A stretch of 61,047 bases of DNA from Phormidesmis sp. RL_2_1. GTDB taxonomy: Bacteria > Cyanobacteriota > Cyanobacteriia > Phormidesmidales > Phormidesmidaceae. Below the pieces are notes generated by a model. That model was not told the origin of the DNA. It was given only the letters and a program-made list of their open reading frames with translations, and did no database searches. The stretch spans positions 1-61,047 of the forward strand of contig JAAUPS010000006.1 of assembly GCA_012033015.1 (NCBI GenBank), in the 5' to 3' direction. Every line of letters begins with the position of its first letter. Position 1 is the first letter of the stretch. This document shows positions 1 through 48,676 of this stretch, piece by piece. The position numbers and the translations under genes were made by a program.

Positions 1-9
1 AGACACCAT

Positions 10-95
10 AGCTCATGTATATCGCTTTGGTCGCTTGGCTGAGGTACAGCACGCTGGCTGAAGCCTCTACGTGACAACAGGCCAAGCGACGCGCT
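10..95 (+). repeat. Dispersed stem-loop repeat R2, copy 1
   Basis: An inverted repeat (GTCGCTTGGC at 30-39, GCCAAGCGAC at 81-90, perfect over 10 bp) encloses about 40 bp. Nearly the same 75-80 bp recurs in reverse orientation at 48591-48676, including the loop. The stretch just downstream (100-140, GGCGTAGCCTCGCC type) resembles other short intergenic palindromes of cyanobacteria. It could be a MITE or a structured RNA element; I see no coding capacity. Confidence 0.7.
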
Positions 96-171
96 TGTAC
101 CCGTTGGCGTAGCCTCGCCGTCGGCGTTATGCATCCGGCACACACTATATCTTCAATGTAGGGTTAGTTCC

Positions 172-480
172 ATGTCATCTAAACCATCTCAACAGCTTTC
201 TCAATCAGGTAGCGCTGGCAAAAACTTGACTCAGGTGGGCCGCGACTACATCAAATACATCTCATTCAATATCGGTGCAGGTAACTGGGGCGTTGTTGCA
301 CTCAACGCACTGGTGATAGCCTTCGTGCTACTTGGCATCGGTACAGCCGCCAAAGCGACCCATCGCATGACGATGAATATGCTTTCGAAAACGAGTTCTG
401 TCAGCAGCCTAGAAGGTAGCCTTTGCACACCCGAAATGGCGATGCTCAATCTTCAGATTGCCCGTCAAGTGCAAAAATGA
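172..480 (+). CDS. Small single-pass membrane protein upstream of collagen-like ORF
   Basis: A 102-aa protein of unrecognised family. The N-terminal 35 residues are polar, followed by a hydrophobic segment at about residues 40-63 ([20 protein letters not shown]), which is a likely transmembrane helix, then a basic and polar tail. Its TGA stop (478-480) overlaps the ATG (477-479) of the collagen-like ORF as ATGA, within a run of five A. The two are therefore either translationally coupled, or one protein split by a missing A. With one extra A they fuse into a 220-aa protein: anchor, stalk, collagen repeats. The start at 172 follows a GTTAGTTCC stretch without a clear Shine-Dalgarno. Confidence 0.6.
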
Positions 481-833
481 GTGACAATGGACAGCTCAAT
501 GCCTCAGTGATAAGTGACCTGCCAGAACTCAAGACGATACAAGGGCCACCTGGAGAACCTGGGGCAAAGGGTGAAAAAGGTGAACCTGGTGCCAAAGGTG
601 AACCTGGTGAAAAAGGTGAAAAAGGCGACCAAGGACTGCAGGGCGATCGCGGTGAGCCGGGTTTACCCGGTATTCCAGGCGAACCCGGCATAGCAGGACG
701 CGATGGCAGCCCAGGCGTTTCTGCAGATGACATCGCTGAAATAAACCGTACGCTCAAAAACACCCAAGCTGACATCAGTTATTTGAGATCGTTGCACAAT
801 GAAGGGGCTTCTCAGAACTCAGAAAACTTTTGA
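477..833 (+). CDS. Collagen-like (Gly-X-Y) repeat protein
   Basis: A 118-aa product with about 20 consecutive Gly-X-Y triplets (residues ~22-81), rich in GEP, GEK, GAK and GPP. This pattern forms collagen-like triple helices in bacterial surface proteins. The C-terminal ~35 residues are non-repetitive and look helical ([20 protein letters not shown]), a possible trimerisation segment. A longer frame opens at a TTG at 423, but I prefer the ATG at 477, which overlaps the upstream stop. No signal peptide is present in this frame alone; the upstream ORF would supply the membrane anchor if the two are fused. The ligand and role are unknown. Confidence 0.75.
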
Positions 834-8240: not shown

Positions 8241-13394
<5,154 letters not shown>

Positions 13395-13917: not shown

Positions 13918-14190
13918 AATTAACATTTTAGCGATCGCTTACGATATCGCTGCCTGAGTGCAATCATAGTGCCTGCGTAAGTCCTATTCATAAAATATTT
14001 ACACAGATAAACTATCACCAAAGCTTTGTGTAAAACAAGGTGGCCTATGTACATGCACTAGTATCGATTTTTACACCCAGTTGCTAGGTTCTAGGGGATG
14101 TTCTCAGCCCTCTGAAAATTTGAGAGCTTGAGGCGATATCTCAAAGTCTTAATTCTCTTTACAAGAATCCCTAGATCTCTGGCAAAAGAA

Positions 14191-17100
14191 ATGGTTCAGT
14201 TCAATCTCTCCTACGACCCTACTATCACCCTCGAACAGCGTGTCGTCTACGAAGTTGCTGCCAATATCTTGAAGAGTTTCTTGACTGACGACACGACAGT
14301 AGACATCCACTTTGTGGGCACCAGTGGCCTCAACGGCGGTAATGCGGTCGGCGGCGCTGTACCTATCTTCCACCGAGTCAGCTACGGCATCTTGACTGGC
14401 TACCTAGCTCAAGATGCTAACAGCCACCTCGATGAACAAGGCGTTCTGCATCTGCAAGATGGCAACACCGTAGACCTGAGTGCCTACGGCGAAGTGATCG
14501 ACGGCAATACTGAGATTCTGCTGACTACCGCCCAGGCCGAAGCGCTAGGGATGGACCAGGCGCTGCTGCTAGAGAGCGGCCACACTTGGGATAGAGACGT
14601 CGTCGATACCGCCGGACTAGACGGCTACATTCTCGTCAACCAAGACTTTGAATGGAACAACGATGTCCTGCGCACAGGCGACGCACCCGAAGGTACGCTC
14701 GACTCGCTCAGCATGGCGCTGCACGAGATGCTACACGTGATGGGCTTCGTCAGCGGCATTGATGGCACTATCGAGTTCAATCAGCTTTTCTCTGGCCAGA
14801 CCGAAGTCACTGGCACTACGCTCCTAGACCTGTTTCGCTACAGCACCGAGAGCAGCACCATCGAGAACCCCGATGGCAGCGTCAGCACTATCACCGAAGG
14901 TGAAGCCGCCTACCTATCGGCAGACGGAGGCCTGACTAATCTAGGAGACTTTGCCACCGGACAAGGCGGCGACGGCTATCAGGCTAGCCACTGGCAGCGG
15001 ATGCAAGTAGCCCTAGGCATCATGGACCCAACGCTAGCCTATCGGGAAAGACTCTCTCTCTCAGAGCGAGACTTGCAGGCGCTAGACCTACTGGGTTGGG
15101 ATGTGGACTATAGCGTCCTAGCCAACGGGTTGAACATGGAAGCGCTGCTGCTACAGGCAGAGCAGACGGTTGCTGTCAGTCTTGGACTAGATAGCGCTGT
15201 GCTGACTGAGCACAGAGCCGCGGGCGATGCCTACACGATGGGCTTTAGTGAGTGGTGGGCACTGTTCGAAGACCAGATTATCGAGATGGGCTTTAGTGAG
15301 TGGTGGCAGGTACTCGAAGTTGGCTATGACAAGTGGGTGACCCAGCAGGAAGACCCAAATGCGTTGCTTCAGATGGGCTTTAGTGAATGGTGGCAATCCT
15401 TTGAAGCAACCATCATTGAGATGGGTTTCAGTGAGTGGTGGCAAACGTTTGAGTCCAACATGCTGAACATGGGTTTCAGCGAATGGTGGCAAGTTCTAGA
15501 AATGGGCTTTAGCGAATGGTGGCAGCAGCTTGAGACCTACTTCTCTGTACTGGAAAAGACTGAGGGTGCGGGTCTAGAGAACCGGTTGATAGCGGATGGC
15601 GGCGTCGGTGGTCAGCGAGCCAAGATCTTCTATGGCGGTGAGAACGATGACATCATTGCGGGCGACGAAAAGCAAGACCGGATTAAGGCAGGCGATGGCG
15701 ATGACCTCGTTGATGGGAAAGAGGGCCATGATGTTATCTGGGGCGAGGCGGGCCGTGACATGCTCTACGGCCAAGACGGCAACGACTTACTCTACGGCGG
15801 CGATGATGACGACCTGCTACTAGGCGAGGCAGGTGATGATGAACTGCATGGCGAAGATGGCCATGACATTGTCAGCGGTGGCAGCGGCGACGACATTATC
15901 ACTGGCGGCGAGGGTCGAGATGACCTCAAGGGTGGCTGGGGCCGTGATGTGATTGATGGCGGAAAAGGGAATGACCTGCTAAGAGGTGAGGCAGACAGCG
16001 ATGTGCTGATTGGTGGTGAGGGCCGCGACCAAGTGCATGGCGGCGGTGGTAATGATATTATCTACGGCGATAGCTACCAGGGTGCAAAAAGCCTCAGGCA
16101 ACTTAGCAAGCAACTAAAGGAACAAACAGAAGCTGATAACAACAATACTTCAGAGACGGCTTCAGTTGAGACAGCTACTTTCAACCCTATCCGGGTAGAA
16201 GCAGAAAGCATGACTCTGAGTGGAGGTGCCTATGTTCATACCACTTGGAACAATGACTCTGGTGATAGTGTCAAGACCTCCGGTTCGTCAACCTCAACAA
16301 CCACTTTCTCCGGCCAATCGGGCAGCTATATGGTGGTAGTGCGCTACTTTGATGAGATTGGTGGCACTGGCAAGCTAGATTTCGGTCTGAATGGGACTTC
16401 TCTGAACAGCTTTGACTTAAACCTAGAGACAGACCGCTATTACACCCGCACCGTTGCGCACAATCTAACCTTGAGTGCAGGAGATGAATTTAGCGTTACA
16501 GCTACTGGTGACGGCGCAGATCGTGCAGCTTTTGACTATGTAGAGTTTATCCCTCTCGACAACTTAATTGAGACCCCACTGGAACAGACGTCAAGCAGCA
16601 GTGGTTCCGTTTTGTCATCGTCGTCGTCAGGCGGAACAGTGAGCGCCTCGACAACGACCACAACAGCGCAAACGTTTCGTGTCGAAGCGGAGTCTATGAC
16701 GCTCGTAGGTGACTACTATACGGAAGCAAATTCTAGTGCCTCTGGAGGAACAGTAATTGCGGTAAGCAATCAGGGGCAGGGAAAGGCGCTAAAAGGGTTT
16801 GCTGGTGAAGCTGGCTACTACAATATCGTGGTTGGCTACTACGACGAAAGTGATGAAGGCATCGGGCAAATTTCTGCGGCCCTTAATGGAAAAGAATTGG
16901 ATTCATGGGCGCTCGATCAGTCTTTAGGAAGTCTGTCAGCTAATGCGCAAACCTTCACCACACGAACGGTTGCTAGCACTGTTTTTCTCCGAGATGGAGA
17001 CATCTTTGAGCTGACTGGCCTTAGAGGAGAAGGCAGCAGCAGCGATGAGCTGGCTCGCATTGACTATGTTGATTTTGTGAAAGTCAATTTCTCAGAATCT

Positions 17101-19494
17101 ACTCAAACGATTGAACCCACTACAGTAAACAACACCACACTAGAAGAGGGCTTGGTTGCTCATTGGGCATTTGATGAAACGGCTGGCATTGTTGCGGGTG
17201 ATGCTACAACCGTTCACAATGCCACAGTCACTAACTCTTTAGCAGGCAACAACCTGTGGAGACAAGGCAAGCTAGGCGGAGCTATCAACCTTGATGGTGT
17301 TAATGACTATGTTGCTGTCGCTGACAGTAATGCCATCAATGTGGGAACCCATGCTCAGCGGACGGTAAGCCTTTGGTTCAAAGCTGATGATACAAGCACT
17401 GCGGAGCGCAAGCAGGTTCTTTACGAAGAAGGCGGTAACACTCGCGGCTTGAACATTTACCTCCATGGCGGACATCTGTACGTAGGAGGGTGGAATCGTG
17501 ATAGCACTCAAAGCAACTGGAGGGGCACTTATTTACAAACTGATGCCGTTGAGTCAGGGAAATGGCACCATGTCGCGCTAGTGCTGAACGGTAATGAGCA
17601 GGTTCGCGCTGGTGCATTTACAGCCTATCTAGATGGGGTACAGTTTGCGAGCGGAGAAGGCTCTCAGCTCTGGAGCCGCACTGCCGATGTCGGCTTTGGC
17701 GCTGTCAATGGTGATACGCGATTCCATGACGGCACGGGCGGCAGTACCGGTAGCAATGCCTTCGCAGGCAGCTTAGATGATGCCCGCATTTATAACCGAG
17801 CTTTAGAGAATGCTGAAATCGCCTCGCTGGTAGGCCGCGATGATGACTTCCTTCAAGGTGGGAAAGGCGACGATACTATTTACGGCGGGCAAGGCAACGA
17901 CATTCTCTATGGTGAATCGGCAGGTGATAGCACTAGTAGCCTTCTGAAAGGGGCACAGACTTACAACGGTCATACTTACTTGCTCAGTGAGCTAGGCAAA
18001 TGGTCTGAAGCTCAAGCTGAAGCTAAACGCTTAGGTGGAAACTTAGTCACAATTAACGATGCGGCCGAAGAAGCCTGGATACGTAGTACTTTCAGCTCAT
18101 CTGAGCAGATGTGGACAGGGCTAAACGATGTCGCTGTAGAAGGTCAATTTGAATGGGTGAGTGGTGAGGCCGTCACTTATACCAACTGGTCACCTGGGCA
18201 ACCGGATAACGGTGGTGGCACTGAGCACTACGGTGTCATCAACTACTTTAACCAGTGGAATGATGCGGGTAACAACGGTGCCTGGAAATGGAATGGTCTA
18301 TCCTGGCAATGGCAGGCTGGATTGCGAGGCATCATTGAAATTAAGGCTACTGATAATGATGTTCTATTGGGTGGTGAGGGAGACGATAGGCTCTATGGAA
18401 ATGGCGGTGATGATTCTCTCTACGGAGATAGTGCAAGCCATTCACTCAGCAATGGGCTGGTCGCTCACTGGAACTTTGATGAAACTAGCGGCACCCAAGC
18501 TGAAGATTCTAAGGGAGAAAATACAGGTACGCTGACCAATATGACCAATAGGCAGTGGACAACAGGCGTTGTGGGTGGAGCCTTAGCCTTTGATGGTGTT
18601 GACGATTACGTCGAAATTGCTGATTCAAGCGCCCTGGATATTACAGAAACCATGACCCTCGCGACCTGGATAAAAGCGGATTCTTTTGGTGACGGATGGA
18701 CAGGTCTCATCGTTAAGGGCCAAAGTGGTGACGCGACTACCTACGGCCTGGATTTGGCTTGGAGCGGTCAATTGATTTTCCACGCAAACGGTGGCAGGAG
18801 TCAGGGACTTTCCTCACACCTCACACTGGGGCAATGGCATCATGTCGCGGTTACCTACAATGGCAGCGAAGTCCAGTTCTATATTGATGGTCAGCTAGAT
18901 GCAAGTCATCAAAGAAATATTACTTTTGGGACGAATAACGAAGCACTTTTGTTAGGCGCTAAGTTGAACACAGGCTCAGTCTCATTAGATGCTCAATTCT
19001 TGGATGGCGAAATGGATGATGTCAGAGTGTACAACCGGGCTTTAAGTGCCGATGAAATAGGGCAACTAGCGGATGCTAACCTCATTTCTCAACTGCTAGG
19101 TGAGAGCGGTGACGATTTCCTTGAAGGTGGCATTGGTAGCGATACGCTTGAAGGTGGTGCTGGCAATGATGTTCTCGATGGGACGGATGCGATCGCTGCG
19201 GGCTACTTTGAAAAAGATATCCTAGGCGGTGGCTTAGGCGCCGATACCTTTGTGTTGGGTAATGCTAACCAAGCTTATTATCTTGGTGGTGGCGATCGAG
19301 ACTACGCCGTGATTAAAGACTTCAATGCGGCTGAAGATATTGTTCAACTGCATGGTTCAGCAAGCAACTATACCCAACAACGACAAGGCAATGATACCTA
19401 CCTTTCTTATCAAGGTAGCAATACCTCAGAGCTAGTGGCAATCTTTAAGAACGTCAGCAGTGTGAACTTGAACGTTGGTTTTTCTTTTGTATAG
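14191..19494 (+). CDS. Giant RTX metalloprotease/adhesin 2 with MGFSEWW repeats
   Basis: A 1767-aa paralogue of the gene at 8241. The frame opens at 14128, but the ATG at 14191 aligns with the paralogue start (MVQFNLSYD versus MVKFNLTYD). The head carries HEMLHVMGF (His178, Glu179, His182) and the same QASHW, MDPTLAY and LDLLGWDVD blocks. Next come six MGFSEWW heptads with a degenerate VGYDKWV (DNA 15238-15530), RTX (15622-16080), two CBM-like domains (16189-17090), a LamG domain (17140-17830) where the paralogue has a third CBM, short RTX, C-type lectin (17950-18345), RTX, a second LamG (18430-19070), RTX and the shared C-terminal domain. The last ~306 nt are almost identical to the paralogue. 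The stop codon TAG lies inside a dispersed repeat. Confidence 0.9.
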   Translation: MVQFNLSYDPTITLEQRVVYEVAANILKSFLTDDTTVDIHFVGTSGLNGGNAVGGAVPIFHRVSYGILTGYLAQDANSHLDEQGVLHLQDGNTVDLSAYGEVIDGNTEILLTTAQAEALGMDQALLLESGHTWDRDVVDTAGLDGYILVNQDFEWNNDVLRTGDAPEGTLDSLSMALHEMLHVMGFVSGIDGTIEFNQLFSGQTEVTGTTLLDLFRYSTESSTIENPDGSVSTITEGEAAYLSADGGLTNLGDFATGQGGDGYQASHWQRMQVALGIMDPTLAYRERLSLSERDLQALDLLGWDVDYSVLANGLNMEALLLQAEQTVAVSLGLDSAVLTEHRAAGDAYTMGFSEWWALFEDQIIEMGFSEWWQVLEVGYDKWVTQQEDPNALLQMGFSEWWQSFEATIIEMGFSEWWQTFESNMLNMGFSEWWQVLEMGFSEWWQQLETYFSVLEKTEGAGLENRLIADGGVGGQRAKIFYGGENDDIIAGDEKQDRIKAGDGDDLVDGKEGHDVIWGEAGRDMLYGQDGNDLLYGGDDDDLLLGEAGDDELHGEDGHDIVSGGSGDDIITGGEGRDDLKGGWGRDVIDGGKGNDLLRGEADSDVLIGGEGRDQVHGGGGNDIIYGDSYQGAKSLRQLSKQLKEQTEADNNNTSETASVETATFNPIRVEAESMTLSGGAYVHTTWNNDSGDSVKTSGSSTSTTTFSGQSGSYMVVVRYFDEIGGTGKLDFGLNGTSLNSFDLNLETDRYYTRTVAHNLTLSAGDEFSVTATGDGADRAAFDYVEFIPLDNLIETPLEQTSSSSGSVLSSSSSGGTVSASTTTTTAQTFRVEAESMTLVGDYYTEANSSASGGTVIAVSNQGQGKALKGFAGEAGYYNIVVGYYDESDEGIGQISAALNGKELDSWALDQSLGSLSANAQTFTTRTVASTVFLRDGDIFELTGLRGEGSSSDELARIDYVDFVKVNFSESTQTIEPTTVNNTTLEEGLVAHWAFDETAGIVAGDATTVHNATVTNSLAGNNLWRQGKLGGAINLDGVNDYVAVADSNAINVGTHAQRTVSLWFKADDTSTAERKQVLYEEGGNTRGLNIYLHGGHLYVGGWNRDSTQSNWRGTYLQTDAVESGKWHHVALVLNGNEQVRAGAFTAYLDGVQFASGEGSQLWSRTADVGFGAVNGDTRFHDGTGGSTGSNAFAGSLDDARIYNRALENAEIASLVGRDDDFLQGGKGDDTIYGGQGNDILYGESAGDSTSSLLKGAQTYNGHTYLLSELGKWSEAQAEAKRLGGNLVTINDAAEEAWIRSTFSSSEQMWTGLNDVAVEGQFEWVSGEAVTYTNWSPGQPDNGGGTEHYGVINYFNQWNDAGNNGAWKWNGLSWQWQAGLRGIIEIKATDNDVLLGGEGDDRLYGNGGDDSLYGDSASHSLSNGLVAHWNFDETSGTQAEDSKGENTGTLTNMTNRQWTTGVVGGALAFDGVDDYVEIADSSALDITETMTLATWIKADSFGDGWTGLIVKGQSGDATTYGLDLAWSGQLIFHANGGRSQGLSSHLTLGQWHHVAVTYNGSEVQFYIDGQLDASHQRNITFGTNNEALLLGAKLNTGSVSLDAQFLDGEMDDVRVYNRALSADEIGQLADANLISQLLGESGDDFLEGGIGSDTLEGGAGNDVLDGTDAIAAGYFEKDILGGGLGADTFVLGNANQAYYLGGGDRDYAVIKDFNAAEDIVQLHGSASNYTQQRQGNDTYLSYQGSNTSELVAIFKNVSSVNLNVGFSFV

Positions 19495-22915: not shown

Positions 22916-25900
22916 TTACCTAACGAACCCATCTAAATCGGGCCGATAGCGGGCGAGAAAAGCGCCCTGCGCGTCGTATAGCTCTACTGGTATTTGGATT
23001 TCGGTGCTCAGTAGGGTGATGTCTTGCAGAAGCTGGTTGGACTGACTGACGAGCTGGGCCGCTGGCATGGTGCCGTTGCGTTGGTCGGGTGGCGTGATCG
23101 ACTGATCGATAATATTGTCGTAGCCCTGTAAAAGGTTGAGCCGGACGGTGCCACTGCGGACAGAATAGGTGCATTTTTGCTGGCTTGCACTGCCGCAAGC
23201 CAGGAAGAATTTGGGTTCGTAGGGTTGGAAGCGCAGGGCGGCTTGCAGATTGCTTTCGGCTTTGGTCAATGAGCTGGTGTATAGCCCACTTAAGGGCTGG
23301 GCTTCGGCCTGGGCTAAGGTGCCTTGGGGAACGATTGCTAGCTGGCTGAGTGCGTTTTCCAGCTTTCGGCGGAGATGGTCCACTGGTCTTCGCGGGCGGC
23401 TTGCTCAGCATTGGCGGCGAGCTGTTTGGCTTTTGAAAGTTCTTGGCTGGCACTGCGCTCTTGTTGAGTGCGATCGCGCACTTCCTCTAACCGCTTCAGA
23501 TAATCTGGCAAATTTTCTTGGGCCTCACTGTGAGCGTTAGTGCCCTGTGGAATTTGGCTGAGGCCATCCACTGCGGCCTCCCAAGATGCCAGGGCATTTT
23601 CCCAATCGGCTAAAGACTGAGCAGCTTCTGCTTGCTTATTGCCCAGAGTAGCCGCCTGTTGAGCCTGACGCAGGCTCATTTCAGCTTTGGCTTCGGCCTC
23701 GATGCGAACCAAAATGGTAGCTCGATTAGTCCGATATTCCACCAGCTTGCGATCGGCAAATTCACGCACTGGGCTATCGGCAGGAACATTGCTCAAGGCG
23801 TTGGCCGCAGCGCGCCATTTTTCGGCAATATCCTGCCAGGTGGACACAGCGTGCGGTGGGTTCTGAGAATCTAAAGCCGCTTGGTAGGCCAGCGCCTGGG
23901 CTTCAGTGATTTGATCGAGCGCCGAGATCTGATTTTCGTATGCGGGCAAAATTTCCTGGGCTTGGGCGTGGTAGGGCGACCATACTGGAATCGGCTTTAG
24001 CAACTGGATAGAACGGTTGAGTTGCGCCTGGGACGCCTGCACAGCAGCTAAGGATGTGTCGAGGCGAAGGTTTTCGAGGGCTTCATCGCCTTGAATTTGA
24101 GCGGTTTGAATGCGATCGCACTGCCCAAACGTACAGGGCGACTCAAACCAAAGCCAATCACCCCGATAACCAGAAATCCTAAAGCACCGACAAAAATCCA
24201 GGGACTACCTTGAGATTGTTGCTGCCACTGTTCACGCTGACGCTGTACCTCCTGCTCATCGATTGCGGCAACTTCTTGAAACAGCTCATAATCATCGTCC
24301 TCCTCACTTTCTAGGGAGTAGTCAGGGTGCTCTTCTGCGATTTCTTCGGCTGCTTCGATCTCTAGATATGTTGGGTTGAGATCTTCTTCACTTTCATATT
24401 GCTCATGGTTTCCTGCGCAGCTCTCTGGGTCGTATTCGTCAACCCCTTCAGAGGTATCTAAGCGGTCATAGTCAGCCACAATGGCTGCTTCTGAGGTCTC
24501 ATCAAATGCTGTTTGTTCGGCAGGTTCATCGCTGTTAGCTTCGTCGTTGCCAGTGTCGCCATCCACTGAATCGCGATCTAAGTCAAGGCCCAAGTCAAGG
24601 CTCAAGTCAAGATCCAAGTCAAGGCTTAAATCAAGATCGTCTGCCAATTCAGCATTACCGACTGCCTCTGCCGCTTCGTCTTCAAGCTCAAGCGTTTCTT
24701 CGTCTTCAAGCTCAAGCGTTTCTTCGTCTTCAAGCTCAAGTTGCTCTGCTGCATCTGTAGGCAGCACTTCTTCTACAGAAGCTGTGGTGGTTGATTCTTC
24801 GAACGCCAATGCTTCAAGCCCGTTCTCATCACTGCCTTTCTCATCACTGCCTTTCTCATCACTGCCTTTCTCATCATTCCCGGTCTGCTTGAATTCAGGC
24901 TCTTCTAAAGGCTCCTCCTCTAAAGGCTCTTCCTCTGCAAATTCCTCTAAACCAGGCTGCTCGAATACAAGAGCAGTTTCCTCATGGGCCAGCGTTGCCA
25001 TCTCAGATTGTTCAAATGCAGCAGTTGCCATTTCTTCTGGGACTGAATCATGAAGAAAAGGGGCATCGACGACAGATACATCATCTGCCATATCAAAAAG
25101 AGATGGATGGTCTGCTGCATCAAACAGGGACATATTGTCAGTGTGGCCATTCGCATCGTTAAAAAGAGCTGCTTCTAAATCAGTGCGATCGCGTTCTGTT
25201 TGATAAAAGTCGGTAGGCTCATCCTCGCTTAAGTTAAAGAAATCTGAGGAATGAGATGAATCAGCAGCCATCGACCTTGACATGCCCGGTAGCTCGACCG
25301 TGGGCAAATTAAACTCCGATGACTCGACCCTAGGCGCTTCACCTGGCAAATCTAGATCTAGCGATTGATCGAGAAACTCAGATATGTCTGAAGTGCTTTC
25401 TGAGGCATTCTCTGAAACAATGCCCATAGCCAAATCAGCCGCTAGTGCGGCTTCACTGTCTTCAAAATCAATACTGTCTTCAAAATCAGCACTGTCTTCA
25501 AAATCAATACTGTCTTCAAAATCAATACTGGATTTGATTTCAGGAAAAACTCCAGCCGTCTCTAGCTCAAAATCCAAAGCCGAATCCGGCTCTAAGTTGA
25601 GCTGTAAATGTTCTTCTGTTAGTTCTGCAGGAATGGGTTCATCTTCGATGGTGGCCTGTAGGTCGGGCAAGAGATGTTCTAGGTCAGCCACTGCGGTGGT
25701 AGCACTAAAAGGAAAAACTATTTTTGTATCTGAAGCATGGAGAAATATGGGTGTTTGGCTTTCTTGAGGGGGCTGTTGATGGATTTTTTCATTGCCTTGA
25801 TGATGGGCCATTGGCTGGCCAAAAAGCTCGTCAAAGCTATCCTCTACCTTCCAGATAAACGAGCGCATCGTGAAGGGTTTGTCTTCACTTACATGCTTCA

Positions 25901-37868: not shown

Positions 37869-38013
37869 CTATAGCAAAGTAAGGATGCATTCTTACTTTG
37901 TCTTGGTGAGCATTCCTTGTCTTGGTGAGCATTCCTTAGCGCCGTACGACGACGCAGGGTCTCACCGCTAGCGCCGCCAAGCGACGCAGCGGCTGACTCG
38001 ACAGAGGCAATAG
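37869..38013 (+). repeat. Dispersed MITE-like repeat R1, 145-bp copy
   Basis: Starts CTATAGCAAAGTAAGGATG with the hairpin CAAAGTAAG...CTTACTTTG, then a 19-bp unit (TCTTGGTGAGCATTCCTTG) present twice, then GCGCCGTACGACGACGCAGG and GTCTCACCGCTAGCG, ending GACTCGACAGAGGCAATAG. The same modules in the same order occur in reverse at 48311-48520. The copy sits just before the TPR-CHAT gene (start 38034), so its hairpins are likely in that gene's 5' leader. Confidence 0.75.
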
Positions 38014-48590: not shown

Positions 48591-48676
48591 AGCTTTGGTC
48601 ACTTGACCTGTTGTCACGTAGAGGCTTCAGCCAGCGTGCCGTACCTCAGCCAAGCGACCCAAGCTATATGAGCTGA
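48591..48676 (-). repeat. Dispersed stem-loop repeat R2, copy 2
   Basis: The reverse complement matches 10-95 closely, including GCACGCTGGCTGAAGCCTCT and ACGTGACAACAGG. The arms AGCTTTGGTCACTTGACC and AGCCAAGCGACCCAAGCT form an 18-bp imperfect inverted repeat. It sits between the R1 copy and the glgB stop codon, possibly acting as the 3' structure of glgB. Confidence 0.75.

Follow-up and report, generated by a model that had tools for sequence, protein, structure and literature searches.

We believe that the two reading frames at 172-480 and 477-833 of the window (the whole 61,047-nucleotide stretch of Phormidesmis sp. RL_2_1 DNA analysed here) are one gene for a membrane-anchored collagen-like protein, cut by a single missing base at about 466-480, most likely through an error in the sequencing or assembly consensus; we put the probability of this reading at roughly 85%. 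As a split gene, the locus has no biological importance. Its parts, all on the forward strand, are as follows.

172-480, plus strand: ORF1, the N-terminal part of the collagen-like protein (ATG at 172, TGA ending at 480, 102 amino acids), with a QVGRDYI motif, then a membrane helix, then the start of the conserved linker
about 292-348, plus strand: the membrane helix, about residues 41-59 of ORF1
466-480, plus strand: the junction, CAAGTGCAAAAATGA, one base short relative to all fused orthologues
477-833, plus strand: ORF2, the C-terminal part of the same protein (ATG at 477, stop ending at 833, 118 amino acids), with the rest of the linker, then 20 Gly-X-Y triplets, then a C-terminal tail
543-722, plus strand: the collagen repeat, 20 uninterrupted Gly-X-Y triplets (Pfam PF01391, E 4e-12, and direct count)

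The stop of ORF1 and the start of ORF2 overlap as ATGA, in frames one base apart, and the junction reads CAAAAATGA. A -1 shift or one added base fuses the two into 220 amino acids, so that the frames agree with the single 220-residue protein proposed by the first-pass annotation, all of whose coordinates and counts hold. The membrane helix that it placed in ORF1 coincides with the most hydrophobic 19-residue stretch of that frame (residues 41-59, mean Kyte-Doolittle value 2.42), and the 20 triplets that it reported in ORF2 were recovered by counting. ORF2 matches PF01391, a family defined by the repeat only, at 46.1 bits, above the gathering score of 27.2. No Pfam family matched ORF1, and no Pfam model covers the anchor or the linker.

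The case for a single gene is carried by its relatives. Among 97 genomes the closest relative is found in Leptothoe kymatousa TAU-MAC 1615 (G039/L018; about 56% identity, 57% over ORF1), where the whole protein is encoded in one 293-residue frame (NZ_JADOER010000010.1). The Leptothoe gene has the same order of parts, namely a QVGRDYI motif, one membrane helix, a CTPEMAMLN linker, a Gly-X-Y repeat and a C-terminal tail, and likewise has a small QVGGDYT partner gene directly upstream; it differs in its one continuous frame, its longer Gly-X-Y region and the lack of an A run at the junction position, where it reads GCGTCGCTAGATG. With ORF1 and ORF2 joined end to end, the linker from its conserved Cys to the first Gly-X-Y triplets shows no gap against that of Leptothoe (identical at 29 of 44 residues, and at 16 of 26 past the junction), and the alignment across the window's junction is gapless for the two nearest orthologues. 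All three orthologues that keep the linker, in Leptothoe kymatousa, a Mastigocoleus metagenome-assembled genome (L019) and genome G181 (L132), are single-frame, as are seven of seven more distant loci that join an anchor to a collagen repeat (L011, L024, L015, L134, L023, L142 and L020). These are the fused orthologues that the first-pass annotation had suggested looking for; it had also held that orthologues consistently encoded as two separate genes would refute a single protein, and we found no split orthologue among the three linker orthologues and seven distant loci. Since all relatives are fused, the ancestral gene was fused and the window is one base short, and we reject two separate genes. 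The order that marks the anchor-collagen family of the Leptothoe type (QVGRDYI, helix, CTPE linker, collagen repeat) is present in the window across two frames, and what the window lacks is the single continuous frame, one base being absent from the assembly as given.

The relatives also bear on the identity of that base. All linker relatives carry Leu at the position of the ORF2 start Met. Loss of a T or of a C (YTG to TG) therefore fits as well as loss of an A, and there is no support for insisting on an A. The A run at the junction may be incidental. Automatic best single-base placement falls anywhere near 466-477, and within the A run the base is not placeable exactly.

At the same time, the assembly itself offers a ready source for such a loss. 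We compared the whole window with the syntenic regions of same-genus genomes, about 38 kb being comparable, and on the same 61-kb contig found four other conserved genes that are each short of one base relative to those genomes.

7532: alpha/beta hydrolase, C6 where C7 is needed
23357: gene of unknown function, A4 where A5 is needed
27987: histidine kinase, one base short, broken between its HisKA and HATPase_c domains; three sister genomes have it whole
31903: DUF928 protein, T5 where T6 is needed

At 24153 lies a fifth candidate, with single support only, which may be a gene boundary. Beyond the contig, rpoB and rpoC2 are one base short each, as are two ribosomal-protein cluster genes (near A4 and G7) whose position and size are rpsC-like and secY-like, and psaA/psaB has two sites with one extra base (L122, G000:C406; L123, G000:C309; L124, G000:C146). 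The open frame of rpoB here is 770 amino acids long, as against 1130-1207 in two sisters, and psaA/psaB lies in four pieces in this assembly as against two in the comparison. When the matched loci of the sister genomes were themselves scored against several others, no frameshift was found, and the pairwise controls gave a few single-support calls, which fell close to short ORFs and to what are probably gene boundaries. We know of no living cyanobacterium that could tolerate frameshifts in rpoB, rpoC2, the ribosomal-cluster genes and psaA/psaB, which are a clear sign of genome-wide indel errors. The rate comes to about one indel in every 5-10 kb of coding sequence that could be compared, essential genes included, and this is enough to explain the split between ORF1 and ORF2. 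That essential genes carry single-base indels in this assembly strongly favours error, and we infer that the base was lost here through error and not by a true mutation. Fragmentation of genes by indel errors is well documented (e.g. PMC12007338). Any finding in the window that depends on split or overlapping ORFs should accordingly be regarded as suspect, and the assembly serves as a warning that split genes, overlapping starts and apparent pseudogenes in this genome should be taken for biology only once relatives have been checked.

The first-pass annotation had left the choice between coupling, slippage and error open; the indels in essential genes now speak for error, and the unconserved A run speaks against slippage. 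Consider, nonetheless, a real single-base deletion that left either a recent pseudogene or two cistrons coupled through ATGA. None of the six other genomes of the genus has the anchor, so the gene is patchy; being patchy and dispensable, it would tolerate a real frameshift. A decayed relative of the linker does exist, in genome G085 (L013; G085:C287:7945-8268, minus strand), where a partner-type start and a CNPELAMLNMQIAHQIQELSD linker are followed by a stop, without a collagen repeat. The ATGA overlap, for its part, would in principle permit stop-start reinitiation, but no Shine-Dalgarno sequence is evident ahead of the ATG at 477. Against a real deletion of either kind stand the indel rate of the assembly, which already suffices, the lack of any split orthologue, and ORF2 itself, in which no further decay is seen, and we consider such a deletion unlikely.

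Programmed -1 slippage, ribosomal or transcriptional within the A run, would yield the fusion with no change to the written sequence: by moving one base back on A5, the AAA that precedes the TGA could pair again, giving a product whose alignment with the orthologues has no gap. It would, however, carry Met where the relatives carry Leu, the run is of five A's only, with no X XXY YYZ heptamer, and Leptothoe does not conserve it. The 80 nucleotides downstream fold worse than 200 of 200 shuffles (z +2.1), and a Shine-Dalgarno-like stimulator is absent upstream. Programmed -1 frameshifting is recognised by a heptamer together with a structure or a Shine-Dalgarno stimulator, conserved in orthologues, and this combination is missing here; without downstream structure, stimulator or conserved A run we reject it, and regard slippage as highly improbable. 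We give very little credence, too, to the broader proposal that the sequence as written is right and that this strain derives anchor-only and anchor-plus-collagen forms from a single message, through slippage or through stop-start coupling at CAAAAATGA; recoding there, if true, would set the amount of collagen rod.

For the intact 220-residue protein a likely mode of working can be outlined by inference from its parts. The single helix, with no cleavable signal evident, would hold the protein in the plasma membrane; the Gly-X-Y stretch is predicted to build, as a trimer, a triple-helical rod to one side of that membrane; and the linker beside the repeat, in which a Cys is conserved, may aid trimer assembly. 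The collagen-like protein would be made together with the small one-helix partner encoded just upstream. The Gly-X-Y repeat is shared with the bacterial collagen-like adhesins Scl1, Scl2 and Lcl, whose NCBIfam models are matched far below their cut-offs (45.3 bits of 400, 33.7 of 325 and 35.3 of 500), whereas the window protein has no LPXTG anchor and no evident signal peptide.

The partner gene itself was recovered on another contig. At the contig end the window holds the following.

1-122, plus strand: contig end, identical to the end of contig C218 and including a dispersed repeat

Contig C218 encodes a 77-residue one-helix protein with a QVGGNYT motif and a GTG start after AAGGAG, and this protein shares 64% identity with the small protein whose gene immediately precedes the collagen-like gene in Leptothoe. 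The two genes therefore probably stand in the Leptothoe order, separated by an inserted dispersed repeat, and a repeat between the partner and ORF1 would explain why the contig ends here. The repeat at 1-122 also occurs at 48598-48669 on the minus strand; it is 50-120 bp long, and the genome holds at least 40 copies of it. Another dispersed repeat of high copy number, at about 37870-37998, has dozens of copies, often at contig ends, and occurs in sister genomes too.

With its missing base restored, the gene is quite ordinary and belongs to a cyanobacterial family of patchy occurrence. Collagen-like proteins had been described by the first-pass annotation as unusual in cyanobacteria, which is wrong: 38 of the 194 genomes sampled from the class contain PF01391 above its curated cut-off. 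A search of plasmid records returned no related DNA, and we found nothing specific in the literature on collagen-like proteins in cyanobacteria. In cyanobacteria an N-terminal module made up of Q[VI]G[GR]DY[IV] and one helix fronts varied C-terminal parts, among them collagen repeats and pentapeptide-like repeats, at L018, L021, L024, L025, L026, L027, L135 and L144, and such genes often have beside them one for a small one-helix protein with a QVGGDYT motif. This module may represent an undescribed cyanobacterial membrane-anchor family with varied C-terminal domains, of which the intact gene is a minor member.

Elsewhere in the window, 8241-13394 and 14128-19494 encode two large related proteins, of 1717 and 1788 amino acids, that carry RTX calcium-binding repeats and C-type lectin and laminin-G-like domains in tandem.
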